From the NCBI RefSeq assembly GCF_900095305.1, contig NZ_FMDO01000062.1, positions 1 through 64,000 on the forward strand: a DNA stretch of 64,000 bases. Reading direction: 5' to 3'. Source of the stretch: Proteiniborus sp. DW1. Its GTDB lineage: Bacteria > Bacillota > Clostridia > Tissierellales > Proteiniboraceae. The position numbers and the translations under genes were made by a program. The notes under the pieces are model-generated. The model was not told where the DNA came from and made no database searches. It worked only from the letters and a program-made list of their open reading frames with translations. Below, in pieces: positions 9,455 to 33,416 of this stretch (positions are counted from its first letter, which is position 1; each line of letters starts with the position of its first letter).

Positions 9455-9472
9455 ACTTCTTGGCTAAGCTAT

Positions 9473-11203
9473 TTATTCTTTTACTGATAAATCAATAAAA
9501 TCAAACTTAGAAACGTCAAATAACCCCTTGTCAGTGACCTTGATTTCTGGAATAACTGGTAGTGCTAAGAATGATAGTGTCATAAATGGATCTATATCTC
9601 TGTTTACCCCAAGTTCCTCATAGGCTATGTTTAGCATCTCAGCAAGTTTTTCATTTACATTTTCCATTGACTCATCAGACATGATGCCTCCTATAGGAAG
9701 ATTTAGACTCTTTAAAACTTTTCCTTTAGAAGCTATGGCAATACCTCCTCCAACTCTAGCAACTTCTTTTATTGCCAATAACATATCTTCGTCACTATCA
9801 CCGATGGAAATCAGATTATGGGAGTCGTGAGCAATTGTTAGTGCTATTGCTCCGTTCTTAAGTCTAAAATCTTCAACGAGACCTAATCCAACATTTCCTG
9901 TAGCATTATGTCTTTCAATAACAGCAAGCTTTAGAATATCTAGTTTACTATTGTTCTTAAACTCTCCATTCTTCACATCTACTTTTCTAACTACTTTCTG
10001 AGTAACTAAATTATGAGGAAGTAGTCTAATAACATTTGCTATATCCTTGTCTAGTCTTATCCTTAAATCTTCCTTGCTTACTTCCTTAATTCTTACAGTA
10101 TCAGTGACATTTGAGTTATCAAAATCCTTTACATCAAATAAAGGCTTTTTGTTTTCACCTACTATTATACCATCTTTATATACCTGAAGTACATTAAAAT
10201 TCTTTAAATCATCTACTACTATTAAATCCGCATTATATCCTGGTGCTATGGCTCCAATATTTTTTAACCTATAGCATTCAGCAGCATTTATGGTTGCCAT
10301 TTGTATAGCAGAGATTGGATCAATACCATTTTTAATTGCAAGTCTAACATTATTATCTATATGACCTGTCAATAGTATATCTTCTGGATGCTTGTCATCT
10401 GTGCAAAATAAGCACCTTCTCATATTTTCTCTTTTTAATCCTCTCACTAACTCCTTAAGGTTTCTAGCTGCTGAACCTTGTCTTATTAAGATATACATTC
10501 CAAGTCTAAGTCTGTTTAACATTTCTTCTACTGTAGAACATTCATGTTCTGTCAATACTCCTGCTGCTACATAAGCATTTAATTCCTTATCCTTTATTTC
10601 AGGACCATGACCATCTATAAGCTTGTTGTGTTCTCTAGCTAGCTTAATTTTATCAATAATCTCTTCATCTCCACTAACAACAGCTGGATAACTCATAAGC
10701 TCCCCTAGACCTAAGACTCTTTCATGATCTATAAGCTCAGCTAAATCTTCTGCTAATAGCTTAGCCCCGGAGGTTTCAAAGTATGTTGCCGGTACACATG
10801 AAGGAAGCATAAAATATGCATTTAATGGTAACCCTTCACTTGAATCTAACATATACTTTATTCCTTCTATTCCTTTAACATTAGCTATCTCATGTGGATC
10901 TGCTATAATAGTTGTAGTTCCTCTTGGAACTACTGCTCTTGCAAACTGTGTAGGGGATACCATGGAAGATTCTATATGAACGTGACCATCAATAAGCCCT
11001 GGTGCTACAAACTTCCCTCCTAAATCAATCTCTTTTTGACCCACATAGTTACCTATTCCTACTATTTTTCCTTGATGTATAGCCACATCTCCTTCCACAA
11101 TCTCATGTGAAAATACATTTACTATTTTAGCATTTTTAAGAACCATCTCTGGCTTTATTCTACCATATGCTAAGTCTATTTTTTGCTTAATTTCAGATCT
11201 CAT
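9473..11203 (-). CDS. ade: Adenine deaminase
   Basis: A 576-residue protein matching bacterial Ade in length and architecture (amidohydrolase barrel plus C-terminal domain). Metal-site motifs are complete: HVHIESSM (HxH), ADPHEI, DGHGPEI (strand-5 His), EHECSTVEE (strand-6 His) and FCTDDKHPED (strand-8 Asp). It converts adenine to hypoxanthine and ammonia, feeding hypoxanthine to the xanthine dehydrogenase encoded just upstream. The intact DGH motif contrasts with the paralogue at 17.2-19.1 kb. It has its own upstream region (11204-11552), so is probably transcribed separately from the xdh genes. Confidence 0.93.
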   Translation of the reverse strand: MRSEIKQKIDLAYGRIKPEMVLKNAKIVNVFSHEIVEGDVAIHQGKIVGIGNYVGQKEIDLGGKFVAPGLIDGHVHIESSMVSPTQFARAVVPRGTTTIIADPHEIANVKGIEGIKYMLDSSEGLPLNAYFMLPSCVPATYFETSGAKLLAEDLAELIDHERVLGLGELMSYPAVVSGDEEIIDKIKLAREHNKLIDGHGPEIKDKELNAYVAAGVLTEHECSTVEEMLNRLRLGMYILIRQGSAARNLKELVRGLKRENMRRCLFCTDDKHPEDILLTGHIDNNVRLAIKNGIDPISAIQMATINAAECYRLKNIGAIAPGYNADLIVVDDLKNFNVLQVYKDGIIVGENKKPLFDVKDFDNSNVTDTVRIKEVSKEDLRIRLDKDIANVIRLLPHNLVTQKVVRKVDVKNGEFKNNSKLDILKLAVIERHNATGNVGLGLVEDFRLKNGAIALTIAHDSHNLISIGDSDEDMLLAIKEVARVGGGIAIASKGKVLKSLNLPIGGIMSDESMENVNEKLAEMLNIAYEELGVNRDIDPFMTLSFLALPVIPEIKVTDKGLFDVSKFDFIDLSVKE

Positions 11204-11552: not shown

Positions 11553-12545
11553 TTATCTATCTTTATTCTGTTCATTTAAAGCCTTTAAGAGTTTTTCTGG
11601 TGTAACTGGTATTTCAGTCATTCTGACACCTACAGCATTGTAGATTGCATTTAGTATTGCCGGTGCCACATAAACTAACACAGGCTCTCCTATACCCTTT
11701 GCTCCAAATGGACCAGTGGACTCAGGATCCTCTACTATAATCTTATCTACTTCTGGCATATCCATAGCTGTAGGTATTAAATAATTTGTAAATCTGTTAT
11801 TTTTCACTTGTCCTTTTACTACATTTAAGTTCTCTAATATAGCATATCCATAGCCCATTGCAAAGCCACCATCAATTTGTCCTTCAATTAGAATTGGGTT
11901 TATAGCTTTACCAACATCTTGAGCTACTGTAGCTTTTATTATTTCAACATATCCTGTCTCTGTATCGACTTCAACCTCTACTCCACATGCTCCAAAGGTA
12001 TATGGCCAATATGGTGAGCCTTGGCCTGTTTCGTCATCCATTTGGGTGGAATGTGCTATAAAGGTTGCTTCTTTTCTTAATAATTCATCACCTATTTTTT
12101 CAGCTATTTCTTTGAAGGATACTTTGTTACTTGGGAAAGTTTTATTATACACATATCCTCCCTTAACAACTAAACCAGTATCACTATTTACTCCTAGTAT
12201 CTCTACTGCTGTTTTTACTATATCAAGCTTTAATGACTCTGCAGCTCTTTTTATGGCATTACCTGTATTATATGTCTGTCTGCTGGCTGCTGCTGTTCCT
12301 GAATCAGGTGTAATACTAGTATCTTCATTTATAAAAACAATATCTTCTACTTTAAGTCCTAAGACCTCTGCAGGTATCTGGCTCATTATTGTCTTTGCAC
12401 CCTGTCCAACCTCTGTAGCCCCAACATAAATTGCTACCTTGCCATCTTTTCTTAACTCAGCAATGGCATTTGAAACATCTGGGAACCCATTACCATATCC
12501 TGTTCCATAAAACATTGTTGCAAAACCTATTCCTCTCTTTTTCAT
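11553..12545 (-). CDS. Xanthine dehydrogenase molybdenum subunit, C-terminal half
   Basis: A 330-residue protein equal to the C-terminal part of a xanthine-dehydrogenase molybdopterin subunit. It starts with KKRGIGFATMFYGTGYGNG and ends with the conserved PFGAKGIGEP loop (about residue 275), which contains the catalytic glutamate, followed by YVAPAILNAIYNAVG. Its ATG overlaps the upstream stop codon as ATGA, so the two halves are co-translated. Together with the 425-residue partner it totals 755 residues, the usual size of the one-piece subunit. A similar two-piece arrangement is known for nicotinate dehydrogenase of Eubacterium barkeri (NdhL/NdhM); I read this as a genuine split subunit and not a recent frameshift. 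Confidence 0.85.
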   Translation of the reverse strand: MKKRGIGFATMFYGTGYGNGFPDVSNAIAELRKDGKVAIYVGATEVGQGAKTIMSQIPAEVLGLKVEDIVFINEDTSITPDSGTAAASRQTYNTGNAIKRAAESLKLDIVKTAVEILGVNSDTGLVVKGGYVYNKTFPSNKVSFKEIAEKIGDELLRKEATFIAHSTQMDDETGQGSPYWPYTFGACGVEVEVDTETGYVEIIKATVAQDVGKAINPILIEGQIDGGFAMGYGYAILENLNVVKGQVKNNRFTNYLIPTAMDMPEVDKIIVEDPESTGPFGAKGIGEPVLVYVAPAILNAIYNAVGVRMTEIPVTPEKLLKALNEQNKDR

Positions 12546-13819
12546 TGAGCTACACCACCTTTAAATCTTTCTATAAAGTTCATCTTTTTCTCTACTTCGT
12601 CTATGCATCTCTCTAGAGGAACACTCTCACTTAATATTTGTCCCGTAGCCGTTTCAGAATCTACTCTAAATATGTTCTTTAATCTAAATGTAATTGGATC
12701 CATACCTAATTTTTCTGCTAATATATCCATCTGTTGCTCATAAGCAAGAGGTGGTTGAGTAGCTCCAAAGCCCCTCATAGCACCTGCAAAAGGATTATTT
12801 GTATATACAGCATAGCTATCTACTTTCACATTTGGTATCTCATAAGGACCAGAAGCATGAACTCCTGCTTTTCTCATAACATTTATAGCCCATGAAGCAT
12901 AAGCTCCTGTATCTCCTATTAATGTAGCTTCCATAGCTAATAGTTTGCCATCTTTTGTGGCACCTGTCTTATATTTCATTTTAACCGAGTGTCTTTTACA
13001 GTGTGCTTCAAAGGATTCTTCTCTTGATAGTATTATTTTTACAGGCCTACCTGTAAGCTTGGTAGCTATTGCCAGATGAATCTGTACAGTTATATCCTCC
13101 CTGCCTCCAAAAGCACCTCCAACAGCAGGGTTGATTATTTTAACTTTTTCTGTTGGCATACCTAAAGCTTCAGCAACTTCTATTTGATCAAAGTGAGGAT
13201 ATTGAGTTGCAACTGCAACAACTACTGTTCCATCTTCCTCCATATATGCAACTCCAGCTTCAGGCTGTAAGAAGGCATGATCAATCATTGGTACATAGTA
13301 CTCGTTTTCCGCTATTACATCACATTCTTTAAATGCTTCTTCTACATTTCCTTTTCTAATTTTATAATGATATACTACATTGCTATTACCTTCATGAATT
13401 TGTGGTGCTGTTTCCTTCATAGCTTCTTCAGGGTCAAATAATGCTTCTATTTCTTCATATTCAACTTTAATAGCTTTGAGAGCCTCATATGCTATTTTTT
13501 CAGACTCAGCAACTACTAATGCTATCGGATCTCCTATTCTTCTTACTTTTTTATTGCAGAATACTTCGTGGTCTTTAAATAAAACTCCATGACTATTGTG
13601 ACCAGGCACATCTTTTGCTGTTAATATCCTTACTACACCTTCTATTTTTAACGCTTCAGTTAAATCTAATGTAAAATATGCATGAGGTTTTGTAGATCTT
13701 AGAGTTTTAGCATATAGCATATTATCCATATAAATATCTTGGGGATATACTGCTTTTCCTGTAACCTTAGAAAGTCCATCTACTCTAATTACACTTTTAC
13801 CTACTACATCTAGTTTCAC
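12542..13819 (-). CDS. Xanthine dehydrogenase molybdenum subunit, N-terminal half
   Basis: A 425-residue protein equal to the N-terminal part of the molybdopterin subunit of xanthine-oxidase-type hydroxylases. It contains the small aldehyde-oxidase/xanthine-dehydrogenase hammerhead domain (about residues 20-130), then GGAFGGRED near 240 and AMRGFGATQPPLAYEQ near 355, both molybdopterin contacts. The chain stops before the region that carries the catalytic Glu, which is supplied by the overlapping next gene. Neighbours supply Fe-S and FAD subunits. Likely substrate is hypoxanthine or xanthine because of adenine deaminase and purine permease next door; another purine or N-heterocycle is possible. 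Confidence 0.85.
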   Translation of the reverse strand: MKLDVVGKSVIRVDGLSKVTGKAVYPQDIYMDNMLYAKTLRSTKPHAYFTLDLTEALKIEGVVRILTAKDVPGHNSHGVLFKDHEVFCNKKVRRIGDPIALVVAESEKIAYEALKAIKVEYEEIEALFDPEEAMKETAPQIHEGNSNVVYHYKIRKGNVEEAFKECDVIAENEYYVPMIDHAFLQPEAGVAYMEEDGTVVVAVATQYPHFDQIEVAEALGMPTEKVKIINPAVGGAFGGREDITVQIHLAIATKLTGRPVKIILSREESFEAHCKRHSVKMKYKTGATKDGKLLAMEATLIGDTGAYASWAINVMRKAGVHASGPYEIPNVKVDSYAVYTNNPFAGAMRGFGATQPPLAYEQQMDILAEKLGMDPITFRLKNIFRVDSETATGQILSESVPLERCIDEVEKKMNFIERFKGGVAQ

Positions 13820-13821
13820 TT

Positions 13822-14295
13822 CTACTCCCCTCCCTTTAAATCTTTAGCTGCCTTCTCTACAGCATTTACTATTTTATTATAACCAGTACAACGGCAGAGG
13901 TTTCCAGATATGGCTTCTCTTATTTCACTTCTATTTGGTGAAGAATTTTTATCTAATAATGCCTTTGCTGATAATACCATTCCAGGTATACAGAATCCAC
14001 ATTGAACTGCACCTTCATCTAAAAATGCCTGTTGAATAGGATGTATCTTTTCTCCCTTGCTTAAACCTTCTATAGTAAGTATTTCTTTTCCTTCTGCTTG
14101 AAAAGCCATTACAAGACATGAAGCCACAGTTTCACCATCCATAATTACTGTACATGCTCCACACTCGCCTTCTCCACAGCCTTCTTTTGTTCCTAGTAGC
14201 CCTAATTTATCTCTTAAGACATCTACGAGCCTCATATCTTCTTCGATTTCCACTTTATGAACTATACCATTTACATTAAGCTCTATTTTTTTCAT
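13822..14295 (-). CDS. Xanthine dehydrogenase 2[2Fe-2S] subunit
   Basis: A 157-residue iron-sulfur subunit. The N-terminal plant-type ferredoxin cluster motif GCGEGECGACTV is at about residues 40-51 with a further Cys near 60; the second cluster, in the four-helix domain, shows CGFCIPGM near 98 and NLCRCTGY near 132. It passes electrons from the molybdenum centre to the FAD subunit. It begins 36 bases after the FAD-subunit gene and ends 2 bases before the molybdenum subunit gene, so the four genes form one operon in the order FAD, Fe-S, Mo-N, Mo-C. Confidence 0.93.
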   Translation of the reverse strand: MKKIELNVNGIVHKVEIEEDMRLVDVLRDKLGLLGTKEGCGEGECGACTVIMDGETVASCLVMAFQAEGKEILTIEGLSKGEKIHPIQQAFLDEGAVQCGFCIPGMVLSAKALLDKNSSPNRSEIREAISGNLCRCTGYNKIVNAVEKAAKDLKGGE

Positions 14296-14331
14296 AGCTT
14301 TCCCCTTCCTTCGATTAAATCAACATGTAAA

Positions 14332-15195
14332 TCAAATGTTTTGCCTAATAGCATTATTTAGAGCACTTCTTAATACTCCCTTAATAGCTGAGCTTTTAAA
14401 TTCAACTGTAGACCTTCCAGCTAGTCTTTCTGCAACTTTTTGCTGCATTAGCTTAAGTCCATCTTCGATGACTTCTTCAGTTAAGTTCTTACCTTTAAAG
14501 AATGCTTCAACTTCTCTTTCTCTCATACCAAATCTTCCTAGAGAACCGTTAGCTATTCTGATATTTCTACAAGAGCCATCAATATCAAATTCAGCAAATA
14601 CACTAGTACATATTCTAGAAATAGCTAAAGCTTTTCTAAGTCCTAGTTTACTAAATGAAAGTACTTGTCCTTCACTGGGGTTATCAAACTTCACAGATAC
14701 AAGTAATTCATCATCCTTTAATGCAACCTTTCCTTTATCTAAAAATAACTCTTCTACTTTAACTTCTCTTTGTCCACTCTTGCTTTTTATAACTGCAATT
14801 GCATCTAATGCAAGAAATGGTGGAACTGTATCAGCTGCAGGAGAACCGTTGCAGATATTACCTCCAATTGTACCTTTATTTCTAATCTGAGGTGAACCTA
14901 CAGAATGTGCTGCCTCTTTTAGTCCTGCAAGTCTGCTACTCAATAATTTTGACTCAGCTATTTCCGTAAAGGTAGTAGCTGCACCTATCTCAACTTTATC
15001 TCCTTCCACCTTAATAAATGACATTTCCTTTATACTAGATACATCTATTAAAGCTTCAAAATCCACCTTATGGTTTTTAATCTCTATAACTAAGTCTGTC
15101 CCCCCAGCAATAACTTTACCTTTTTCTTTATATTGATCTAAAAGTTCAACAGCCTCTTCAACAGTATTGGGTTTATGTGCGTATTTTATAGTCAT
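14332..15195 (-). CDS. Xanthine dehydrogenase FAD-binding subunit
   Basis: A 287-residue subunit of the CO-dehydrogenase/xanthine-dehydrogenase FAD family. FAD motifs VIAGGTDLVIEI (about 29-40) and QIRNKGTIGGNICNGSPAAD (about 102-121) are intact; the C-terminal domain shows CRNIRIANGSLG. It hands electrons to NAD(P) or another acceptor. First gene of the four-gene operon. A 370-base upstream gap separates it from the purine permease and should contain the promoter. Order and sizes match those reported for clostridial selenium-dependent hydroxylases, consistent with the selenium-maturation genes at 3-7.6 kb. Confidence 0.92.
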   Translation of the reverse strand: MTIKYAHKPNTVEEAVELLDQYKEKGKVIAGGTDLVIEIKNHKVDFEALIDVSSIKEMSFIKVEGDKVEIGAATTFTEIAESKLLSSRLAGLKEAAHSVGSPQIRNKGTIGGNICNGSPAADTVPPFLALDAIAVIKSKSGQREVKVEELFLDKGKVALKDDELLVSVKFDNPSEGQVLSFSKLGLRKALAISRICTSVFAEFDIDGSCRNIRIANGSLGRFGMREREVEAFFKGKNLTEEVIEDGLKLMQQKVAERLAGRSTVEFKSSAIKGVLRSALNNAIRQNI

Positions 15196-17241: not shown

Positions 17242-19056
17242 TTACCTAACTACTGGATCAAGTATTTCAAAGTTATCTACGTCAAGTAAGCCTTTGTCGC
17301 TTATTTTCCATTTTGGACTTGTAGATAAAGCTAAAAACGAAACGTGCATAAATGGAGCATGTAACGTTCCACCTAGCTGATTTTTTACAGTTGCCTCTAA
17401 AGCTGCTATTTTAGCACTTACTTCTGGACCAGTTAATTCATCTGTTATAAGTCCTCCAACTGGAAGTGCTAGTTCATCTAATATTCTACCATTATTAGCT
17501 ACAGCAACTCCGCCGCCCATTTCTATAACTCTATTTACAGCAACTACCATGTCTCTTAAATTAGTTCCTGTTACTGTTATATTATGCGTATCATGGGCAA
17601 TTGACTGAGCAAATGCACCTTGCTTCAATCCAATTCCTTTTACCATTGTCTTACCGATGTTTCCATTACGTCCATATCTTTCTAAGTTGGCTAAGTATAT
17701 TACGTCTTGGTTGACATCAGCTTCTACTACACCTCTATTAACTCTAACTTGAGCTTCACCAGTTCCTGTTAGGTTTTGATCAGGTATAGCCTGGATATAT
17801 CTAACTGTAGCAGTATTTCCCTCTGCCCTAATTTCTAAATCTGCTTCAGTAATAGGCGCTCTTTTCACTGAGTTTTTAACTACATCAGGATAAGTGTATT
17901 TTGGTAAATCTATTAATAGCTGTCCCTGTGAAGCTACTAATTGTCCTTTTATAAATACAGCCTCTACAGTCATTTCTTTAAGGTCACTGATAACAGCTAT
18001 GTCTGCTACTCTTCCTGGTAAAAGAGCTCCTCTATCATCTAGACCCCAATAAGTTGCAGGGTTGATTGTTGCCATTTGTATAGCTTCTATTGGGTCTACC
18101 CCTTCTCTTATTGTTCTTCTGATAATATCATTCATATGACCATATTTTTCTAAGTCCTCTGCAACCATGTCGTCTGAAACTAAGATAAGTCTTCTTGAAT
18201 CTAGTCCCTCTTCAGTCACAGCTCTTATACATTCAGCCATATTTCTTTGAGTAGAACCTTCTCTCATAAATACATATACGCCCTGTCTTAGCTTTTCAAT
18301 ACACTCTTCCTTAGTTGTTGTTTCGTGGCAGGAACAAGTTCCACCACAGCATATTATGTGAGCTGCTAAGTCAGCACCAAATAATTCCGGAGCATTCCCA
18401 TCAACTGGCTTTCCTAAACTCTTAGCATAAGTAGTTGAAGTCAATAAGTCTGTTATTATTTCTGGTGTATTTTTATATACATGCTTAGCAAGAGAAAATC
18501 CTTGTAGTTCTCCTATACCGAATATGTTTGGATAATTTAATAAGTCCTCCATATCCTTAGAATTTACATCAACACCTGCTGTCTCTAAACTTGGAGCATC
18601 AGGGGTTAAAGCTGGAACTTGTAGTCTTACATAGTTTGGTACTACATTACATTCGTCGGCCATAGCCTTCATAGCTACTGGTCCCAATGCATTACCTATT
18701 TCATGTGGGTCAGCTATTAAAGTTGTTGTACCAGAAGGTATAGATAATCTAGAAAACTCAGTAATAGTCAACATACTACTTTCAAAGTGCATATGTGAAT
18801 CCATAAATCCTGGTGATAGATATAAGCCTGTTACATCTACTACCTTTGTATCTGGTCCTATTAGTGATTTACAATCACCAACAAGTAGTATATAGTCTCC
18901 CTTTATAGCTATATCTGCTGTGTACACTTCTCTAGTTATTACATTTATCACATTACCGTTGTGAAGTACTATATCAGCAAAGTGTTTATCTGACATAAGT
19001 ACATCTATTAACTCTCTATATTCTATTGCTCTTTTTACATCTTGTGGCTTTAGCAA
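17242..19056 (-). CDS. BMC-associated adenine-deaminase paralogue (candidate 4-aminoimidazole deaminase)
   Basis: A 604-residue amidohydrolase of the Ade family, last gene of the shell operon (21 bases after the BMC-P gene). Metal motif HMH is at residues 88-90, ADPHEI near 115-120, SCHETTTKEE on strand 6 and VSDDMVAED for the strand-8 Asp. The strand-5 motif that is DGHGPE in the true Ade of this window is DGNAPEL here: the metal-ligand His is Asn221. This loss of a core ligand, the longer N-terminus and the position inside a BMC operon argue that it is not an ordinary adenine deaminase. The pathway needs a deaminase for 4-aminoimidazole, chemically analogous to adenine deamination. That assignment is inference; adenine deaminase remains the default alternative. 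Confidence 0.8.
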   Translation of the reverse strand: MLKPQDVKRAIEYRELIDVLMSDKHFADIVLHNGNVINVITREVYTADIAIKGDYILLVGDCKSLIGPDTKVVDVTGLYLSPGFMDSHMHFESSMLTITEFSRLSIPSGTTTLIADPHEIGNALGPVAMKAMADECNVVPNYVRLQVPALTPDAPSLETAGVDVNSKDMEDLLNYPNIFGIGELQGFSLAKHVYKNTPEIITDLLTSTTYAKSLGKPVDGNAPELFGADLAAHIICCGGTCSCHETTTKEECIEKLRQGVYVFMREGSTQRNMAECIRAVTEEGLDSRRLILVSDDMVAEDLEKYGHMNDIIRRTIREGVDPIEAIQMATINPATYWGLDDRGALLPGRVADIAVISDLKEMTVEAVFIKGQLVASQGQLLIDLPKYTYPDVVKNSVKRAPITEADLEIRAEGNTATVRYIQAIPDQNLTGTGEAQVRVNRGVVEADVNQDVIYLANLERYGRNGNIGKTMVKGIGLKQGAFAQSIAHDTHNITVTGTNLRDMVVAVNRVIEMGGGVAVANNGRILDELALPVGGLITDELTGPEVSAKIAALEATVKNQLGGTLHAPFMHVSFLALSTSPKWKISDKGLLDVDNFEILDPVVR

Positions 19057-19077: not shown

Positions 19078-19362
19078 TTACTCACTAATAAATTCCTTAT
19101 ATACATCCATATTATCTACTATGCCTACAATAGCAGCGTCTATTGCAGAGTTTTTCTTATCTGCCGCATTTCTTGATGCAGTGCCTGTTGCGAAAATCAC
19201 TACTTCACCTATACCTGCACCTACTGTATCTACTGCTATTAGTGGCTTTCCTGAAGGCTTAGAATCTATGTCAATAGGTTGTGTTATTAAAAGTTTACTC
19301 CCTACTAGACTTTCGCTTTTTCTTGTTGCAACTACCGTACCTACAACTCTGCCTAATTGCAT
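19078..19362 (-). CDS. BMC-P pentameric shell protein (EutN/CcmL family)
   Basis: A 94-residue protein of the EutN/CcmL family that forms pentamers capping the vertices of bacterial microcompartments. The start MQLGRVVGTVVATRKSESL and the LLITQPID, AVDTVGAGIGEVVIFATG and SAIDAAIVGIVD blocks are diagnostic. It sits between the flavoprotein and the deaminase paralogue. It is the only pentamer gene in the window, enough to close an icosahedral shell together with the BMC-H proteins. No alternative identity is likely. Confidence 0.95.
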   Translation of the reverse strand: MQLGRVVGTVVATRKSESLVGSKLLITQPIDIDSKPSGKPLIAVDTVGAGIGEVVIFATGTASRNAADKKNSAIDAAIVGIVDNMDVYKEFISE

Positions 19363-19379
19363 TTTATCACTCCCTTACT

Positions 19380-20219
19380 CTAATGTCCCTTGACTATTTT
19401 AATTCCTAGCTCTTTTGCCCTGTCATATGCTAGAGGAGTTATAATTGATCCTATAGGTACAGTCACTTCATTGTTGATGGTTTTCATGTTAATTAAGTCT
19501 TTTTCAGTTATAACCTGACGCGTACTATGGCTTTCTCCAGCAACTGTATTTTGTGAGCTTTGCCCAGTAACAGTAGTGGTTTCGTCCATTGGACTGTCTC
19601 TGAAGACATTTAACATCTCTAACACATAATCTTTCTTATCAACGCTTTTTATTCCCATCATCTGAAGTTTTTCTACGTAATCATTCATTATTTGCTGGAG
19701 CATTGGTACTTTAGATCTGTTCCCCCTATAAGCAAGTACATTGCTAAAGTCCATAAGTATCTTCTTGCCATGCCATAGCCCCTGCCATAATAAAGTTGAT
19801 ATAAAACAATCCTGTATACCTAAGGCTAGTTTAGTAGCAGTGTCTTGGGTCAGCATAGGTACTATAATACCGTCTACACTTTCTAAAATTTCGCCAAAGA
19901 TTAATTTGTCCTTTTGTGTATAAACCTTATCTGTTTGTAGGGTAGATTTTATAGAAGCTATTCCTTGCTCACCAATAATTTCTTCCCCATTTTCAGTTAA
20001 GGCAATATCAAAAGTAAAACCATAGCGCCTTGCTTTTGAAAGTTCCCTAAGTGACTCATTTAGTCCAAAGTTAGTTCCTGTAAATACGGCTAAAATATGC
20101 TGATTTACATAGTCTTGTGGCTTACATCTGAAATCGGCTCTTTCCTTTGGACTATGACCACCATTTAATTTTTGCACCAGTTGACTAATTATGTCACTGG
20201 TTTGGTTGTATTTTTCCAT
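19380..20219 (-). CDS. BMC-operon flavoprotein with encapsulation-type N-terminus
   Basis: A 279-residue protein. The core (about residues 30-200) looks like the flavoprotein superfamily of UbiX, phosphopantothenoylcysteine decarboxylase and dipicolinate synthase subunit B: AVFTGTNFGLNESLRE near the N-terminus and LLWQGLWHGKKILMDFSN later. Residues 5-19 (NQTSDIISQLVQKLN) form a short amphipathic helix before a Gly-Gly linker, the layout of BMC encapsulation peptides. A Ser/Thr-rich linker (about 210-235) leads to a C-terminal domain with VPIGSIITPLAYDRAKELGI. Flavoproteins of this kind occur in several BMC loci with unknown roles. It might bind FMN or deliver prenyl-FMN to UbiD. Function not assigned. 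Confidence 0.7.
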   Translation of the reverse strand: MEKYNQTSDIISQLVQKLNGGHSPKERADFRCKPQDYVNQHILAVFTGTNFGLNESLRELSKARRYGFTFDIALTENGEEIIGEQGIASIKSTLQTDKVYTQKDKLIFGEILESVDGIIVPMLTQDTATKLALGIQDCFISTLLWQGLWHGKKILMDFSNVLAYRGNRSKVPMLQQIMNDYVEKLQMMGIKSVDKKDYVLEMLNVFRDSPMDETTTVTGQSSQNTVAGESHSTRQVITEKDLINMKTINNEVTVPIGSIITPLAYDRAKELGIKIVKGH

Positions 20220-20283: not shown

Positions 20284-20562
20284 CTATTCGTAGTTTTTAA
20301 GAATCACTCTTTCAACTTCTGAGTGTGGTCTTGGAATTACATGTACTGAATGTAACTCTCCTACTGCTCTTGCAGCTTCTGCACCAGCATCTGTTGCAGC
20401 CTTAACAGCACCTACATCTCCTCTCACCATAACTGTTACAAGACCAAAACCAATTTTATCATATCCCACTAAAGTAACATTTGCTGCTTTAACCATAGCA
20501 TCTGCTGCTTCAACAGCACCTACTAAACCTTTAGTTTCTACCATACCTAACGCTTGACTCAT
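20284..20562 (-). CDS. BMC-H hexameric shell protein (canonical)
   Basis: A 92-residue single BMC-domain protein nearly colinear with PduA/EutM/Ccm[43 protein letters not shown] and [11 protein letters not shown]. The loop lining the hexamer pore reads KIGFG, where propanediol shells often have KIGSG, so the pore is lined by a bulkier residue. It follows the extended BMC-H gene by 19 bases. Likely the main facet tile. No paralogue-specific extension is present. Confidence 0.95.
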
Positions 20563-20581: not shown

Positions 20582-20977
20582 TTACTTTGTAGTTGTCTTT
20601 TTTTTACTTTCTTCAGTATTAGCTTTTTTATCTTCATTTTCCTCTTTTTTTGATTCAACTTTTTGGTTATCTTTCTTAGATTTTAAGTTCTTTTCAAATA
20701 TTGAAATTAATCTATCTACTTCTTCATGTGGTCTAGGTATCACATGACCAGATACAACTTTACCAACTCTATTGCCAGCAGACACTCCAGCTTCAACAGC
20801 TGCCTTAACTGCGGCTACTTCACCTGCAATGTTAATAGTAACACTTACAAGCTTATCTACACCAATTACCTTCTCAACTCCTACAAGCTTCACATCTGCT
20901 GCCTTACTTGCAGCATCTAATGCTGTAATGGCTGCAGTTAATCCAACTACCTCGATTAATCCAAGAGCTGATTTCAC
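20582..20977 (-). CDS. BMC-H shell protein with charged C-terminal tail
   Basis: A 131-residue protein. Residues 1-90 are a BMC-H domain (LGLIEVVGLTAAITALDAAS, AVKAAVEAGVSAGNRVG, HVIPRPHEEVDRLI). The pore-loop region reads EKVIGVDKLVSV and lacks the usual glycine pair, so the pore is probably distinct or occluded. Residues about 95-131 form a Lys/Glu-rich disordered tail that could project from the shell or bind cargo or nucleic acid. Codons of the tail are AAA/GAA-rich. Domain identification is secure; the role of the tail is unknown. Confidence 0.93.
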   Translation of the reverse strand: MKSALGLIEVVGLTAAITALDAASKAADVKLVGVEKVIGVDKLVSVTINIAGEVAAVKAAVEAGVSAGNRVGKVVSGHVIPRPHEEVDRLISIFEKNLKSKKDNQKVESKKEENEDKKANTEESKKKTTTK

Positions 20978-21002: not shown

Positions 21003-21542
21003 CTATAGTAAGGAGCCCTTTTTTCCTATTGAGTTCAAAGAAACCTTAGGAATATAAGCTTCTAAATTGTTTATTACTCCTGTTTTTACATATACATCTT
21101 TCGTATTTTGTTGTTGCGCTACTTGATTATCTACAGTACTTACTTGATTGTTTGATTTTTTCACCTTGCTAGCTAAGTCATTTAGAGTCATCATAGTGTT
21201 TGATTTGTTGTCAATAGAATTACTGTTTTTCGGCTTTACATTTCCTTTAACTAAATCTTCAAGCCTAACTTTCTCGAATGTATTTACTCCACTGTTATAC
21301 TCTGCTGGCTTAGATACTGATTTAGATGCTCTCTCAGATAATGAATTAAGAGTATCTAAAGTTCTAGAAGGTCCAGTAGCTTTTCCTAAATTCTTATTCA
21401 TAACATTCAGTAGTAGTTGTTCGTCTTTTTGTCCTAATCCTGATATAGAATAAGTGTTTTTTGCAGAATTACTTCTTGTCTCGTTTATTTTACTACCTTG
21501 AGTAATGTTATTCATAATCACCCTTGCCAACGGGTTAGCCAT
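21003..21542 (-). CDS. Disordered protein between shell genes, candidate BMC scaffold
   Basis: About 179 residues, no family recognised. I start at the ATG at 21542 because GGGTGGTGA just upstream is a good ribosome-binding site; the upstream GTG codons lie inside that site. The chain is rich in Asn, Ser, Lys and Thr, and has no predicted fold. Short amphipathic helices are spaced along it: residues 3-16 (NPLARVIMNNITQG), 40-53 (DEQLLLNVMNKNLG), 92-99 and 118-129, plus a final NNLEAYIPKVSL block. Its place between BMC-H genes and the pattern of short helices joined by flexible linkers recall carboxysome scaffold proteins such as CsoS2 and CcmN. It may link cargo to shell. Inference only. Confidence 0.6.
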   Translation of the reverse strand: MANPLARVIMNNITQGSKINETRSNSAKNTYSISGLGQKDEQLLLNVMNKNLGKATGPSRTLDTLNSLSERASKSVSKPAEYNSGVNTFEKVRLEDLVKGNVKPKNSNSIDNKSNTMMTLNDLASKVKKSNNQVSTVDNQVAQQQNTKDVYVKTGVINNLEAYIPKVSLNSIGKKGSLL

Positions 21543-21561
21543 TTTATTCACCACCCTTTAG

Positions 21562-21828
21562 CTAATCTAACATTTTATCTACTTCGTCATGAGGTCTAGC
21601 AATGACATTTGTAGATATAATTTCAGCTAAGCCCTTTACTACTTCTGTTGCGTTATCAACGGCTGCTTTTACTGCTGCTACTTCACCTGATACTATTACA
21701 GCAACGACTCCAGAGCCGACAAAGTTCACATCAACTATGTGTACATCAGCTGACTTAACCATAGTATCAGCTGCCTGGATAGCAGCCACTAAACTTCTGG
21801 TTTCTACCATACCTATGGCCTGTCTCAT
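21562..21828 (-). CDS. BMC-H hexameric shell protein
   Basis: An 88-residue single BMC-domain protein: AIGMVETRSLVAAIQAADTM, FVGSGVVAVIVSGEVAAVKAAVDNA and NVIARPHDEVDKML. The pore segment reads NFVGSG, different from the other two BMC-H proteins in the operon, suggesting that the three tiles pass different small molecules. It lies 19 bases after the UbiD gene and directly before the disordered protein. The tight coupling to UbiD supports the view that the decarboxylase is cargo. Confidence 0.95.
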   Translation of the reverse strand: MRQAIGMVETRSLVAAIQAADTMVKSADVHIVDVNFVGSGVVAVIVSGEVAAVKAAVDNATEVVKGLAEIISTNVIARPHDEVDKMLD

Positions 21829-21847: not shown

Positions 21848-23212
21848 TTATTTTTTCATTCCTGGGAAATATTTTTGAATATCTATTTTCCCCTCAAATC
21901 CAGGAATCACTGCCATTTCATAAAAATGTGCTTTCTCACCTAAAGGCTTTGTAGCATCGATTCCCATTTTATCTGTAACTCCACGAGCCACATGGGATGC
22001 TTCTAATCCTGAACCTAAAGCTCCTGGAACTATTACCACATCCTGTGAAGCTTGAACTCTAGAAGCTAGTGCATGCTCTACACTTTTTACATTATATATA
22101 TCAACATCTTCATCTACTATTACCACATGCTTAATATCATAAAATGCACCAAGTGCGCCTAATATTGCAGACTTGCCATCTCCTTCTTTCTTCTTGCTTA
22201 TAGAAATAATAGCATGTAATCTGCATCCTCCGCCAACAGTTATGTTTACATCCTTTACATCTACCATGTTCTTAAGAGCCGCATATAGTTCTGCTTCTCT
22301 AATAAGCCCATTAGCAAGATGTTCCTCTCTACAAGGGAAGGCATGTTGGAATATAGGGTTATTTCTATGCATAATAGTCCTTACTTCCATAACTGGATTT
22401 GGGGCAACATCTCCATAGTAGTTCATTAATTCACCAAATGGTCCTTCAACTTCTCGCCTATTTGGAACTAATACTCCTTCGAGAACCATCTCTGCATATG
22501 CTGGAACTTCTAAATCAACAGAGTGGCATTTTACAAGCTCAAGAGGTTCACCCCTTAAAGCACTATCAACCTCATACTTGTTAAGACCATACTTTCTAGA
22601 GCCTATTTGAGATGCTAGAAGGAAAGTTGCATCATAACCAAGTACTACTGCACACTCTAACGGTTTATTCATTTTTTCAAACTCTGCAAATTGCTCCCTT
22701 AGTGCAGGAGAATGACCAGATATAAGTGCATTTATAATATTTCCTTTATGGACTTGAAATCTTCTAACTGCCATATGTGTATAACCTGTTTCAGGCTCTC
22801 TTACTATGAGCATACCTGCTGTTATGAAACTAGATGCATCTTTTTCATGAGAAGTAGGTACTGGTAACATTCTTTGTATATCAATATTTCTAGTAATGAT
22901 ATTTTCTTTTATTGGCCCATTACTTACTAACTTTGCAGGTTGAGGATTTGCTATTGCATTCATGTATTTAAATATTCTTTCTTCTGGTGTAGTATCGGTC
23001 ATCATGTAATAGAGTTCTCTATTTCCATAAAGCCCTCCTACTACAGGCATATCGTATCCTTTTACTCTGTTAAACAGTATAGGCTTTTCATTTTCAAAAT
23101 ATCTTAATACTGCTCCTAGTTCATATTTAGGATCTACTTCTACATTACATACTTCTAGCTCGCCAAGCTGCTCTAGCTTACTTAGAGTAGCCCTTAGCAT
23201 TTGTTTTTCCAT
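21848..23212 (-). CDS. UbiD-family decarboxylase (candidate 4-amino-5-imidazolecarboxylate decarboxylase)
   Basis: About 454 residues of the UbiD superfamily, whose members use prenylated FMN for reversible (de)carboxylation of aromatic or unsaturated acids. Conserved features are REPETGYTHMAVRRFQVH (cofactor-binding region) and VEGPFGELMNYYG, which carries the active-site Glu residues. I start at the ATG at 23212 because GGAAGGAGGGAG lies immediately upstream; the longer frame overlaps UbiX. Encoded between ubiX and the BMC genes. In the clostridial imidazole pathway 4-amino-5-imidazolecarboxylate must lose CO2, and this is the only decarboxylase in the cluster. The substrate is inferred from the pathway. 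Confidence 0.87.
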   Translation of the reverse strand: MEKQMLRATLSKLEQLGELEVCNVEVDPKYELGAVLRYFENEKPILFNRVKGYDMPVVGGLYGNRELYYMMTDTTPEERIFKYMNAIANPQPAKLVSNGPIKENIITRNIDIQRMLPVPTSHEKDASSFITAGMLIVREPETGYTHMAVRRFQVHKGNIINALISGHSPALREQFAEFEKMNKPLECAVVLGYDATFLLASQIGSRKYGLNKYEVDSALRGEPLELVKCHSVDLEVPAYAEMVLEGVLVPNRREVEGPFGELMNYYGDVAPNPVMEVRTIMHRNNPIFQHAFPCREEHLANGLIREAELYAALKNMVDVKDVNITVGGGCRLHAIISISKKKEGDGKSAILGALGAFYDIKHVVIVDEDVDIYNVKSVEHALASRVQASQDVVIVPGALGSGLEASHVARGVTDKMGIDATKPLGEKAHFYEMAVIPGFEGKIDIQKYFPGMKK

Positions 23213-23232
23213 ACTCTCCCTCCTTCCAAATC

Positions 23233-23787
23233 TTATTCTCCCCATCTTTTTGATATATTATGTTCTATGCCAAGCTGGTCTAACACTCTACCAATAATTG
23301 AACCCACAATATCTCCTATGCTTTCAGGATGATTATAAAAGCCTGGCGTTGGAGGTAATATTGTTGCACCTGCTTGTGCTAGCTTCAACATGTTCTCTAA
23401 ATGTATGGTGCTAAGTGGGGTTTCTCTAGGAACTATAACTAGCTTCCTTTTCTCTTTTATTATAACATCCGCAGCTCTTGTCAACAAATTATCTGACATA
23501 CCATGTGCAATGGATGCTACAGTTTTCATTGAGGAAGGAATAATCACCATTGCATCTGTTTTAAATGAACCACTTGCTATGGGTGCTGCAAAGTTTCTAT
23601 TATCATGATAATAAGTTGCTAACCCCTTTAACTCTTCAAGGGTTACACCACATTCATGTTCAACTACATATTCTCCCATGGTTGTCACTACAAGGTGAGT
23701 CTCTATGTTTAGCTCCTGAAGCACCTTTAAAAGAGCTAATCCATATATGCCACCACTTCCACCAGAGATCCCAACGATTACTCTCAT
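23233..23787 (-). CDS. ubiX: UbiX flavin prenyltransferase
   Basis: About 184 residues of the UbiX/Pad1 family, which attaches a dimethylallyl group to FMN to make the prenyl-FMN cofactor of UbiD enzymes. The N-terminal GISGGSGGIYGLALL is the flavin phosphate loop; VIIPSSMKTVASIAHG and IVPRETPLSTIHLENMLKL are family blocks. I choose the ATG at 23787 with GAGG upstream over the frame start at 23802. It precedes ubiD by 20 bases, so cofactor maker and user are co-expressed. A hairpin-rich 190-base leader separates it from the amidase gene. Confidence 0.92.
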   Translation of the reverse strand: MRVIVGISGGSGGIYGLALLKVLQELNIETHLVVTTMGEYVVEHECGVTLEELKGLATYYHDNRNFAAPIASGSFKTDAMVIIPSSMKTVASIAHGMSDNLLTRAADVIIKEKRKLVIVPRETPLSTIHLENMLKLAQAGATILPPTPGFYNHPESIGDIVGSIIGRVLDQLGIEHNISKRWGE

Positions 23788-23856
23788 ATGACATTTCCTC
23801 ACTTTCTGCTATTGGCCACAAATAAGTATAAGTCATAAATACTTTTATTATTTAGG

Positions 23857-23976: not shown

Positions 23977-24588
23977 TTATTTAACTTTGTTTTCTGGATC
24001 TCCTGCTCCTGCCCATGGATCTAAGCCTTTTTCAAATGCATCGATGTATTCATCTATAGTCATAACCTTTGTGAATATACTTAGGTCAACTAATCCATGT
24101 TGATGTTGTTCTTCTGTTTTTGAGTGAACTCCATCACTTAAAGTAATTACTTTATAAGCATTAGCTAGAGCATCAGCAGCTGTAGATCTAACACATACGT
24201 TTGTCCAAACTCCAGTTACTACCACTGTATCTATGCTTTCCTCTCTTAGGAATAGGTCTAAGTCTGTATGCCAGAATGCACTGTGTCTTCTCTTTTGAAT
24301 TATATATTCACCTTTTTCAGGATATAGTTCTTTTATGAAGTCAGAACCCCAAGTTCCCTTAACAGCGTGAACCGGTCTTACTCTGAAGTCTGCATCATTT
24401 TCTCTATGAGCTTCTTGAACATGAACTAGTTGAACATCGTCTTTTCCTTGAGCATTTCTTTCTCTTACCCATTTAAATAGCTTTTGAAGATTTGGAACTA
24501 TTTCTTCTCCACCTGGGCATCTTAAAGGTGCCTTTTCTCCTATGAAGTCATTTAACATGTCTATAACTACAATTGCGTGTTTTGCCAT
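23977..24588 (-). CDS. Isochorismatase-family cysteine amidohydrolase (candidate ureidoimidazole amidohydrolase)
   Basis: A 203-residue protein of the isochorismatase/nicotinamidase superfamily. The catalytic triad is visible: D10 in VVIDMLNDF, K99 in IIQKRRHSAF and C132 in VTGVWTNVCVRSTAADA. Relatives hydrolyse N-carbamoyl groups (N-carbamoylsarcosine amidase, ureidoacrylate amidohydrolase). It is encoded directly after the hydantoinase-type ring-opening enzyme. In the xanthine pathway the second step removes the carbamoyl group from 4-ureido-5-imidazolecarboxylate, giving CO2 and ammonia, so this protein is the natural candidate. Family certain; substrate inferred. Confidence 0.87.
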   Translation of the reverse strand: MAKHAIVVIDMLNDFIGEKAPLRCPGGEEIVPNLQKLFKWVRERNAQGKDDVQLVHVQEAHRENDADFRVRPVHAVKGTWGSDFIKELYPEKGEYIIQKRRHSAFWHTDLDLFLREESIDTVVVTGVWTNVCVRSTAADALANAYKVITLSDGVHSKTEEQHQHGLVDLSIFTKVMTIDEYIDAFEKGLDPWAGAGDPENKVK

Positions 24589-24692: not shown

Positions 24693-26291
24693 TTAGTATG
24701 TTATTGTTCTAGGTAATACTTGTATACTTTGTCTCTTAACAAATTTACCAAATCCAGGTTTAACCTTGATTCCTCTAATACTTCTAATATGTTGATCTAT
24801 AACCTCTGGATGATTCTTTCTATAGCTATTTTCGTATTCTGCACTGTATAGCTGAGGATATAGATCAAAGTGCTCTTTATATTTTTCTGCTACACCTTCT
24901 GGATAGTCATGAACTAACTTCTTAAGGTCTTCATCAGTCATTTCTGATAGTACGCTAGCATCCTCATCTACATATACTAGATGACCACGAACTATAGTCT
25001 TAACTACTTTTCCCTTTAGCTCCATACCTTCTAGTGGTGTATATCCACACATTGAAGCTTGTTTCTTAGGATCTATAGTCCAAGTCTTATCAAGATCTAT
25101 AATTGTAAAGTCTGCATCTGAACCTATGTTTAAAGCACCTTTCTTTGGATATAGTCCATAGTGCTTAGCAGCATTAGTAGATAGTATATCAACAAGTTTG
25201 CTTAATGAAATTCTTCCTTTATTGTATCCTTCACTTACTATAACAGGAACCATTGTCTCAACACCTGGGATTCCTGGGAATGCTGTCCAGATAGTTGTTC
25301 CTTCTTTTATCTTTTCACTTTCTAGTTCGTATGGAGCATGGTCTGTAGCTATGAAATCTATGCTACCATTTCTAATTCCTTCCCATTGCTCTTCGTTATC
25401 TCTCTTAGTTCTTAGAGGTGGAGCAATCTTAGCGTTTGCACCATGAATTGTCATAGATTCTTGATAATTTAATGTTAGATAGTGAGGACATGATTCTGAA
25501 GTTACATTTAAGCCTCTCTTCTTAGCTTCCCCTACTAATTTAGCACCTATTCCAGTACTCATGTGTACTATGTGTAGTCTAGCTCCTGAAGCTTCTGCAA
25601 AGCTGATTCCTAATTCTATAGCAACCTTTTCAGCTAATTCCATTCTTGCTTCTGCCCATGCTGGACCATCCATTCTTCCTTCTTCTCTGAATTTTTTAAC
25701 ATAAAAGTCACACATAGCGAAGTTTTCAGCATGAATTCCTATTGGAAGGCCTGTCTTAGCAACTGCCTTAAAGCACTCATACATTTCTGGATCAGTAACT
25801 CTTGGATAAGTTGGAACTGAAGGAGTCATGTATACTTTGAAAGCTACTACTCCTGCATCAGCTTGTTCTTGAACATTGTGTAGTCTGTTTTCTCTTACAT
25901 CTTCTCCAGTTACTCCACCCCAAAGTGCAAAGTCAACTAATGCTTGAGGTGCACATAAATCTTTCTTTAAATTTAATTGATCAACGCTTCTTACAGATGG
26001 AACTGAACAGCATGGCATATCTATAACTGTTGTTATTCCACCTGCTGCAGCTGCGGCTGTACCAGTTAAAAAGTTCTCTCTATGTGGGAAACCTTGATAC
26101 ATAAAGTGAGTGTGTGAATCAATACATCCTGGTAAAGTTAAATGTCCGTGAGCATCTATTGTATTCTTTGCTTCTATTCCATCAATACAATCTGTGAAAC
26201 CTGCTATTTTTTCATCTTTAACCAAGATGTTAGTTAATACTGTATAGTCCCCTTGAGGGATTCTAGCATTTTTAAGAATTAAATCATACAT
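24693..26291 (-). CDS. Hydantoinase/allantoinase-type amidohydrolase (candidate xanthine amidohydrolase)
   Basis: About 532 residues of the cyclic amidohydrolase family (dihydropyrimidinase, allantoinase). The binuclear metal site is complete: H60 and H62 in DSHTHF, K152 in VVAFKVYMT (the carbamylated lysine), GIHAENF, LHIVHMST, and the catalytic Asp in FIATDHAPYE. The start at 26291 is set by AGGAGG 9 bases upstream; the longer frame begins in that site. Relatives open cyclic ureides by amide hydrolysis. Xanthine ring opening to 4-ureido-5-imidazolecarboxylate is the first step of the clostridial pathway and the same chemistry. Allantoinase is the main alternative, but no other ureide gene (allantoicase, ureidoglycolate enzymes) is present. 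Confidence 0.87.
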   Translation of the reverse strand: MYDLILKNARIPQGDYTVLTNILVKDEKIAGFTDCIDGIEAKNTIDAHGHLTLPGCIDSHTHFMYQGFPHRENFLTGTAAAAAGGITTVIDMPCCSVPSVRSVDQLNLKKDLCAPQALVDFALWGGVTGEDVRENRLHNVQEQADAGVVAFKVYMTPSVPTYPRVTDPEMYECFKAVAKTGLPIGIHAENFAMCDFYVKKFREEGRMDGPAWAEARMELAEKVAIELGISFAEASGARLHIVHMSTGIGAKLVGEAKKRGLNVTSESCPHYLTLNYQESMTIHGANAKIAPPLRTKRDNEEQWEGIRNGSIDFIATDHAPYELESEKIKEGTTIWTAFPGIPGVETMVPVIVSEGYNKGRISLSKLVDILSTNAAKHYGLYPKKGALNIGSDADFTIIDLDKTWTIDPKKQASMCGYTPLEGMELKGKVVKTIVRGHLVYVDEDASVLSEMTDEDLKKLVHDYPEGVAEKYKEHFDLYPQLYSAEYENSYRKNHPEVIDQHIRSIRGIKVKPGFGKFVKRQSIQVLPRTITY

Positions 26292-26351
26292 TTTTTTACT
26301 TCCTCCTCTTCTTCTATATTTTACCAAGTGTTAGCGTTTTCATGCCTTTTC

Positions 26352-26399: not shown

Positions 26400-28070
26400 T
26401 TAGAACAGTCCAACTATAGTGCCATCTGGAAGTATATCCATCTTGTTTGCTGCCGGCACCTTTGGTAACCCTGGCATTGTCATTACTTCTCCCGTTAGCG
26501 CTACTATAAATCCAGCACCTGCTGATAATCTTAACTCTCTTACTGTTATTGTGAATCCTTTTGGTCTTCCTAAAAGTGATGCGTCATCTGATAGAGAGTA
26601 TTGTGTTTTAGCCATACAAATTGGCATTTTATCTAGTCCTAAATCAGCTAATGTTTTAGCCATTTTTTCTGCACCTTTTGTGAATACTACTCCATCTGCT
26701 CCGTAAACTTCTTTTGCAATCTTTGTAATCTTATCTTTTATTGAAAGCTCTACATCATATAGCGGTTTGAAGTTAGATTCTTTACCTTCTACTACTTCTA
26801 TTACCTTCTTAGCTAATTCAATTCCACCTTCTCCACCATTAGCCCATACATCTGATATAGCTACTTCTGCTCCTGATGCCTTTACTTTTTCAAATACTAG
26901 ATTTAACTCTGCTTCTGTATCTGTCGGGAATTTGTTAATTGCTACTATTGATGGTACTCCAAATTTAGCTACATTTTCTATATGTTTCTCTAGGTTTTCT
27001 AATCCCTTTTCTAGAGCTTCTAGGTTTTCTGCTCCTAAGTCTGCTTTTGCTACTCCACCATGCATCTTAAGCGCTCTTACAGTAGCTACTATAACTGCTG
27101 CCGCTGGCTTTAATCCTGCAAATCTACACTTTATATCAAAGAACTTTTCTGCTCCTAGGTCTGCTCCGAATCCTGCTTCTGTTACTGCGTAGTCTCCTAG
27201 TTTTAGCGCCATTTTTGTTGCTAGTACACTGTTACAGCCATGCGCTATGTTCGCAAACGGTCCTCCGTGAATTAAAGCTGGAGTATTTTCTAGTGTTTGT
27301 ACTAGGTTAGGCTTTATAGCATCTTTTAGTATTAGAGCTAGTGCTCCTGTAGCTTCTAAGTCTTTAGCTCTTACTGGATTTCCTTCCATGTTATATGCTA
27401 CTACCATGTTTCCTAGTCTTTCTTTTAGATCTTCTAGGCTTGTTGCTAAACATAATATAGCCATTATTTCTGATGCTACTGTTATATCAAATCCATCTTG
27501 TCTAGGTACTCCGTCAGCTTTTGCTCCTAGTCCTATTACAATATTTCTAAGAGCACGATCATTCATATCTACTACTCTTTTCCAAACTATTCTTCTTGTG
27601 TCTATATTTAATGCATTTCCTTGATGTATATGGTTATCTAGTAACGCTGCTAGTAGACTATGTGCTGAAGTAATTGCGTGGAAGTCTCCTGTAAAGTGTA
27701 GATTTATGTCTTCCATTGGTACTACTTGTGCGTATCCTCCACCTGCTGCTCCACCTTTTACCCCAAATGATGGTCCTAATGATGGTTCTCTTAATGCTGT
27801 TATAGTCTTTTTGCCTAATTTGTTTAGCCCCATGCTTAGACCAATGTTTGTTGTTGTCTTTCCTTCTCCTGCTGGTGTTGGATTTATTGCTGTAACTAAT
27901 ATTAGTTTTCCATCTGGCTTATCCTTTAGTCTGTCAAATACGTCTAATGACACTTTCGCCTTGTATTTTCCGTATAATTCTAATTCATCATCTAGTATTC
28001 CTATTTGCTCAGCTATTTCTGATATAGGTTTCATTTTAGCTTCTTGTGCTATTTGAACGTCTGTTTTCAC
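26400..28070 (-). CDS. fhs: Formate-tetrahydrofolate ligase
   Basis: A 556-residue protein colinear with clostridial formyl-THF synthetase. The ATP loop [15 protein letters not shown] is at about residues 65-79, followed by [23 protein letters not shown]-type segment near 95-117 and the C-terminal [22 protein letters not shown] signature in shorter form. The start is GTG with AGGAGGAG upstream. In purine fermenters the enzyme runs in the ATP-forming direction from 10-formyl-THF to formate, the main substrate-level phosphorylation. It lies 77 bases after the formiminotransferase gene, which supplies the one-carbon unit. Confidence 0.97.
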
Positions 28071-32908: not shown

Positions 32909-33416
32909 ATTATTCCTCCTTATGTAGTAATACTCTTACATTATTATTTATTAATTTACTACAATATATTCATTATAATAACATAAATATTGGATAATGT
33001 CTATGTGTATTTTTTACAATTAACTTCAATGAAAAATTACTTTAACTACAATCTATAACTCTTGTAAGCCTCTAATTATCTTATGTTTATTATATAATAG
33101 ATTTGATTTTTTCTTTAATTGATTAATGTTCATGTTGTTTATCCATAGCCTTTTATAGATATTTGATTTTATTGTGTATTTCTTACAAATTTTTTAAATG
33201 CTACTTTTATGACGTTTTCAAACTTCCTGTAAATTTACACATTTCCAAGGGTAGTCCACATTTATATAATTTTGAATTTTGTAATTTCCCAATTTTTAGG
33301 TCTTGCTTAAATCTAATTTATACTTTAAAATCACAACTATAATAAAAATTGTTGTTAACTTTGCTAGCATAAAGCAATCGTTTTCATCCTAAACTTTAAT
33401 GAGAGGAGCAATTATA
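32909..33416. promoter_or_regulatory. Divergent region between cyclodeaminase and xanthine permease
   Basis: About 500 AT-rich bases without coding signal. The second copy of the candidate PucR element is at 33133-33160, 225 bases from the cyclodeaminase start. A minus-strand TATAAT is present at 33089-33094 with a poor -35 box. The plus-strand promoter for the permease is not evident. No purine riboswitch core is visible. Confidence 0.45.
33133..33160 (-). promoter_or_regulatory. Candidate PucR operator, copy 2
   Basis: Minus-strand reading: ATCTATA, AAAGGCTATGGATAAA, CAACA; matches the element at 29297-29325 in order and nearly in spacing. Confidence 0.45.

Follow-up and report, generated by a model that had tools for sequence, protein, structure and literature searches.

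Asparagine at a metal-ligand position marks a clade of adenine deaminase homologues predicted to act on 4-aminoimidazole

RESULTS

Gene content of the locus

The window analysed here comprises 64,000 nucleotides of Proteiniborus sp. DW1. Read from 30.4 kb down to 9.5 kb, it carries genes for CYC (on the forward strand), FtcD, formate-tetrahydrofolate ligase, a hydantoinase-like protein, an isochorismatase-family amidase, UbiX, UbiD, a BMC-H shell protein, a 183-aa protein, two further BMC-H proteins, a 279-aa protein, the vertex protein BMC-P, the XauE-type adenine deaminase (Ade) homologue, a permease, xanthine dehydrogenase-type subunits and a true Ade (Table 1). The run from XauE to UbiX is tightly packed, with gaps of -13 to 64 nt, and a formate transporter lies further up, as does the PbuX permease. 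The XauE reading frame begins with TTG, and a GGAGG site is located ahead of this start codon. For the isochorismatase-family amidase the closest curated models are those of biuret amidohydrolase and RutB, both of which score far below their cut-offs. About 90 residues of the hydantoinase-like protein lie outside the part that matches known hydantoinases. The molybdenum-binding subunit (11553-13819) is present as two ORFs that overlap by 4 nt and match the two halves of pucD; two separate matches to this subunit were also observed in many related loci. An Rfam scan of the window at the gathering threshold revealed no purine or xanthine riboswitch and only a Moco riboswitch (49380-49501, reverse strand, 74.2 bits), which is located a few kb above genes for a MoaA-type radical SAM protein and two MoeA-type proteins.

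Table 1. Features of the locus, with coordinates in the window
Feature	Position	Strand	Remarks
True adenine deaminase (contrast gene), proposed hypoxanthine feeder	9473..11203	-	TIGR01178 655.4 bits (cut-off 472.5); His199
Xanthine dehydrogenase-type subunits	11553..15195	-	molybdenum subunit as two ORFs
XauE-type Ade homologue, proposed 4-aminoimidazole deaminase	17242..19056	-	604 aa; PF13382 and PF01979; AF2 model; best PDB match 3NQB
Codon AAT, Asn221 at the strand-5 metal-ligand His position	18394..18396	-	residue numbering with TTG as 1
BMC-P vertex protein (CcmL/EutN family)	19078..19362	-	homologue in 54/54 fully flanked loci
279-aa protein, family unclear	19380..20219	-	C-terminal part TIGR02536-like (ethanolamine-utilization protein)
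BMC-H shell protein	20284..20562	-	PF00936
BMC-H shell protein with Lys/Glu-rich tail	20582..20977	-	PF00936
183-aa protein, poorly conserved	21003..21554	-	no family match
BMC-H shell protein	21562..21828	-	PF00936
UbiD-family decarboxylase, proposed 4-amino-5-imidazolecarboxylate decarboxylase	21848..23245	-	PF01977, TIGR00148; 54/54 loci
UbiX-family flavin prenyltransferase	23233..23802	-	TIGR00421; 13-nt overlap with ubiD; 53/54 loci
Isochorismatase-family amidase, proposed ureido-imidazolecarboxylate hydrolase	23977..24588	-	PF00857
Hydantoinase/allantoinase-like amidohydrolase, proposed xanthine amidohydrolase	24693..26327	-	curated-model and family matches
Formate-tetrahydrofolate ligase	26400..28070	-	NF010030, 958 bits
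FtcD-type formimidoyltransferase, proposed to convert formiminoglycine to glycine	28148..29092	-	TIGR02024, 312 bits over cut-off
CYC, PF04199 cyclase-fold hydrolase, proposed 4-imidazolone hydrolase	29670..30365	+	PDB relatives; co-occurrence with XauE
PbuX-type xanthine permease	33399..34790	+	TIGR03173, 491.8 bits over cut-off

The shell genes stand together with genes for a UbiD-type decarboxylase, hydrolases, FtcD and xanthine dehydrogenase, and the locus is thus a BUF1/Xau microcompartment. Comparative genomics predicted this microcompartment to degrade xanthine and gave XauE (Amet_4572) the fifth step, a deamination (Ravcheev et al. 2019, PMC6620236). Judged by the gene order in the text of that paper, Amet_4572 is the counterpart of our gene, with a matching place between shell and xanthine dehydrogenase genes and a matching proposed step. 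Maledivibacter halophilus, which is named as a BUF1 carrier in PMC8217296, carries the Xau locus as in the window.

Fifty-four loci of this type are flanked by 9.8 kb or more in both directions. All 54 contain BMC-P, BMC-H and UbiD; UbiX was found in 53, CYC and the isochorismatase-family amidase in 49 each, the hydantoinase-like protein in 46, FtcD in 34 and Ade in 29. The five loci without a nearby CYC gene have CYC elsewhere in the genome, in one case as two adjacent pieces. FtcD is missing within 10 kb in 20 of the 54 loci, which counts against the pathway reading of XauE presented below.

Asparagine replaces the strand-5 histidine in XauE

According to the preliminary description, the strand-5 motif DGHGPE of an intact Ade reads DGNAPE in the XauE-type gene, with codon AAT at 18396-18394, while the other ligands stay. 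Re-reading of the sequence matched this exactly, and in the alignment H88, H90, E183, H244 and D295 are all kept. The second Ade of the window, named as the intact copy, indeed carries His at this position, as do Atu4426 (3NQB) and E. coli AdeD. In YerA of B. subtilis the ligands are His87, His89, Glu179, His210, His231 and Asp283 (PMC12133300).

XauE belongs to the Ade fold family, since PF01979 and PF13382 score 86.4 and 194 bits, respectively, both above the curated cut-offs. With the adenine deaminase equivalog model TIGR01178, XauE of the window reaches 460.6 bits, below the cut-off of 472.5. Ten XauE proteins were scored in this way: four lie above the cut-off and six below, compared to about 650 bits for two true Ade proteins. 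The TIGR01178 cut-off thus sits within the score range of XauE, and XauE proteins may be named adenine deaminase. Judged by sequence scores only, adenine would still be compatible as a substrate of XauE.

The asparagine is a signature of one clade

Ligand patterns were compiled for 232 distinct Ade-family proteins (ORFs of at least 450 aa) from 41 related genomes, 391 genomes of the class, 80 named loci, 398 genomes of the phylum, 148 genomes of the phylum of G815 and one E. coli region. The pattern HHENHD was found in 107 proteins and HHEHHD in 125, and no third pattern occurred. The complete metal set of adenine deaminases (HxH, Glu, His, His, Asp) is therefore absent throughout the XauE clade, in which 107 of 107 proteins carry Asn. 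Since the proteins were gathered with XauE as query, best matches first, together with fetched regions, the ratio of Asn to His should not be read as a frequency, and the His proteins represent those members of the Ade family that are closest to XauE. At most three candidates per genome were scored in the searches of the 391 and 398 genomes, and the named loci are the best 80 of 180 relatives in genome contigs. Shorter ORFs such as the fragments L074 and L168 are outside the count; L168 also has Asn. Viral contigs were searched as well and contained no relative of XauE.

Bit scores against the query separate the two groups completely, with 722-1350 bits for the Asn proteins and 254-440 bits for the His proteins. 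Within the clade the Asn codon is AAT in 84 cases and AAC in 23, and both His codons are also in use. The use of both Asn codons indicates that the residue itself is conserved. A tree of 97 rows was calculated with FastTree only, from 41 of the 107 Asn and 56 of the 125 His proteins and with the strand-5 column removed. The Asn proteins form one side of a single branch with a support of 100 and a stem length of 0.53, which indicates that Asn arose once on this tree. The long branches of E. coli AdeD and L028 meet in it. Besides Asn221, 22 other positions are at least 95% uniform in the Asn clade with a residue that is carried by at most 5% of the His group. Seven of these 23 positions are conserved differently in each group, and F91, Q185-G186, T246 and M297 adjoin ligands; His233 is also specific to the clade. 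Asn221 therefore appears to be one part of a coherent change of the active-site region. Asn at strand 5 is a signature of the clade and not a quirk of one gene.

These data bear on the possibility that XauE is simply a second adenine deaminase in which Asn serves as a neutral ligand variant. Membership of the Ade family, the shared fold and the four XauE proteins that pass the TIGR01178 cut-off are in line with it. However, a true Ade is already present in 29 of the 54 fully flanked loci, and all 39 Ade genes found in the 80 named loci, the best 80 of 180 relatives, have His at strand 5. The clade-specific positions, several of them by ligands, and the strict co-occurrence of XauE with CYC (see below) also argue against a second adenine deaminase, which we judge to be improbable.

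The asparagine does not follow the microcompartment

The preliminary description proposed an alignment of Ade homologues to see whether Asn follows microcompartment linkage. This alignment was carried out and the linkage did not hold, since a sub-clade without microcompartment (BMC-free) also keeps Asn; the idea that Asn is tied to the shell was rejected once this group was found. Asn proteins outside shell loci, 55-60% identical to the query, are encoded at L058, L059, L187, L190, L191, L193 and L194. In most of these loci XauE lies beside or near CYC, and in four of them (L190, L191, L193 and L194) FtcD as well; L194 carries a UbiD-family gene in addition. L187 ends inside CYC, and no pathway neighbour was found in the 20 kb of L059. 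Whole-genome searches of G632, G608 and G585 (97-99% complete) returned no PF00936 protein and hence no BMC-H gene. In G631 and G470, BMC-H genes are present on contigs other than that of XauE, and G017 and G030 carry a second, shell-linked XauE. In the tree the BMC-free clade and a Bacillales microcompartment clade are sisters with a support of only 56. Because the BMC-free sub-clade retains Asn, the residue tracks the pathway: it follows the steps from aminoimidazole via imidazolone to formiminoglycine and not the microcompartment.

Two of these loci have further features. In L191 (G631) two Asn-type XauE copies (9254-11071 and 14081-15904) flank an NCS1 permease and CYC and do not lie in a microcompartment locus. 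L058 (G030) carries a second Asn-type XauE, 56% identical, beside CYC, a ribokinase and a RihC-type nucleoside hydrolase, neighbours that might feed aminoimidazole from a riboside.

With one metal ligand missing and a gene that adjoins shell genes, XauE could be thought of as a catalytically dead or structural protein associated with the shell. However, all 107 proteins of the clade keep the other five ligands unchanged, and the gene is kept in the BMC-free clade, even in duplicate in G631. We consider a dead or structural XauE to be extremely improbable.

XauE co-occurs with the PF04199 hydrolase CYC

Among the 391 class genomes, 13 encode an Asn-type XauE, 12 a CYC homologue of at least 60% identity and 12 both (Fisher 5.8e-22). 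In the 398 phylum genomes the corresponding numbers are 13, 12 and 11 (Fisher 1.1e-18); the two samples share genomes (at least G000 and G006) and are therefore not independent. Both tables were compiled by hand from listings. Exceptions to the co-occurrence are G398 (77% complete), G585 (CYC cut at the contig end), G592 (XauE truncated) and G657 (CYC near the contig end). Distant CYC homologues (38%) were found in G336, G545 and G796, none of which has an Asn-type XauE as judged by score. A hydantoinase-like homologue of more than 36% identity is absent in 8 of 18 XauE-bearing genomes searched, and all eight have CYC at 57-71%. In one of the eight, G808, whose locus is titled Neofamilia massiliensis, no hydantoinase-like homologue was observed at E 1e-40.

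By sequence match and Foldseek, the relatives of CYC in the PDB are kynurenine formamidase and isatin hydrolase; the CYC model is of fair quality (pLDDT 74.6), and the Foldseek list adds little to the sequence match. Isatin hydrolase opens a five-membered lactam. Taken together, the near-perfect co-occurrence with XauE, the frequent lack of the hydantoinase-like gene and the PDB relatives favour CYC, rather than the hydantoinase-like protein, as the candidate for opening imidazolone; hydrolysis of xanthine would then fall to the hydantoinase-like protein. Ravcheev et al. (2019, PMC6620236) assigned opening of the six-membered ring to Amet_4587 and of the five-membered ring to Amet_4584, which by gene order are CYC and the hydantoinase-like gene, respectively. 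If this mapping is right, the assignment favoured here is the reverse of theirs. The question may already have been settled by Tong et al. (2023).

XauE is predicted to deaminate 4-aminoimidazole

The middle intermediates of the clostridial xanthine pathway are ureido-imidazolecarboxylate, amino-imidazolecarboxylate, 4-aminoimidazole and 4-imidazolone. The locus supplies one gene family per step from xanthine to formiminoglycine and on to glycine. PMC3519856 describes how the ring is first opened and how the pathway ends via formiminoglycine. In the proposed route, UbiD and UbiX would decarboxylate 4-amino-5-imidazolecarboxylate to 4-aminoimidazole, and XauE would hydrolyse this amine to 4-imidazolone and ammonia. 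CYC would then open the imidazolone lactam to give formiminoglycine, and transfer of the formimino group to tetrahydrofolate by FtcD would finally yield glycine. The shell genes lie between the genes for UbiD and XauE, which probably form the core cargo, so that, going by gene order, the amine would be made and used inside the shell.

The preliminary description had suggested a substrate other than adenine and named 4-aminoimidazole. Both suggestions gain support from gene content: each pathway step has its own enzyme, and besides the separate true Ade, XauE is the sole deaminase-type gene in the cluster. XauE is also placed, in genomic association, between decarboxylation genes before it and an imidazolone-opening gene after it. 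We therefore predict with good confidence that XauE, the product of the gene at 17242-19056, serves as 4-aminoimidazole deaminase in the anaerobic degradation of xanthine.

The amidohydrolase superfamily contains cyclic-amide hydrolases and the order of steps cannot be fixed by context alone, so that XauE might instead act on another amine or amide of the pathway, such as a carboxylated aminoimidazole, or open a ring. On the other hand, for each of the remaining hydrolytic steps the locus contains a gene family that fits better than XauE. Moreover, XauE stays together with CYC and FtcD in BMC-free loci, whereas 8 of the 18 genomes searched lack a close hydantoinase-like homologue. We judge such an alternative substrate to be improbable.

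Carriers of XauE include Andreesenia angusta (L078), a known purine fermenter (PMC5256209). Although C. acidurici carries three genes for putative adenine deaminases, adenine is not used by this species (PMC3519856); this would be explained if one of the three is XauE.

Predicted structure and metal centre

The AF2 model of XauE, calculated from 33 sequences, has a pLDDT of 92.0 and a pTM of 0.90. The match to 3NQB spans 579 residues at 2.7 A, with a Z of 43.9 and 31% identity, and over its whole length the model has the adenine deaminase fold. All ligands of the alpha metal (H88, H90, the bridging E183 and D295) are kept, and this metal is expected to bind. At the beta site, Glu183 and His244 would be retained and Asn221 would take the place of His, with the loss of one imidazole. 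Going by the roles of the ligands, the second metal may be ligated by the Asn oxygen or be weakly held or absent, and the metal site may be tuned to a small, electron-rich five-membered ring.

E. coli NagA is a natural amidohydrolase in which half of the binuclear site is lost; its strand-1 pair is changed and its beta site is kept. With regard to which half of the site is altered, XauE would be the mirror image of NagA. It is possible, although we hold it with less than even confidence, that the change of the strand-5 imidazole to Asn gave the clade a natural asymmetric or alpha-only site, and that this one-base change was a gateway from adenine to 4-aminoimidazole. It would have arisen once, together with the aminoimidazole-imidazolone-formiminoglycine module, with the microcompartment gained or lost separately.

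DISCUSSION

4-Aminoimidazole as the substrate of XauE is not new, as it has already been predicted; it is very likely correct and has probably been assayed in earlier work. Compared to our data, the accessible text of Ravcheev et al. (2019, PMC6620236) mentions neither the Asn ligand nor BMC-free relatives. A 2025 paper (PMC12507026) credits Tong et al. (2023, Cell Chem Biol) with the identification of the xanthinase gene cluster in Clostridia and Bacilli and describes xanthinase as slow, with a kcat of 0.1 per second. The pathway described there corresponds to the one proposed for the window locus. No description of the Asn ligand was found in the literature that we searched, which leaves out most subscription papers. 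Tong et al. (2023) reportedly name four hydrolases drawn from different families, along with a prenylated-flavin decarboxylase, and this set would fit the genes of the window. Within the reach of our searches, what is new is the strictness of the Asn signature, the existence of a branch without microcompartment, and the co-occurrence by which CYC is implicated.

Atu4426 (PDB 3NQB, 3T81) has the fold and five of the six ligands in common with XauE, but carries His at strand 5. A precedent for a change of substrate in the Ade family is provided by YerA of B. subtilis and Bh0637, N6-methyladenine/adenosine deaminase (PMC12133300). In contrast to XauE, YerA retains all six ligands including His210 (PMC12133300).

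With Asn at strand 5, a single residue can serve to tell aminoimidazole deaminases apart from adenine deaminases, as which they are annotated. We suggest that the two published step assignments (Amet_4587 and Amet_4584) be re-checked. The XauE clade is a clean natural experiment in which a binuclear hydrolase centre tolerates the loss of an imidazole. Additionally, an Asn-type XauE marks purine-fermenting potential in genomes without a microcompartment, which searches for shell genes would miss.
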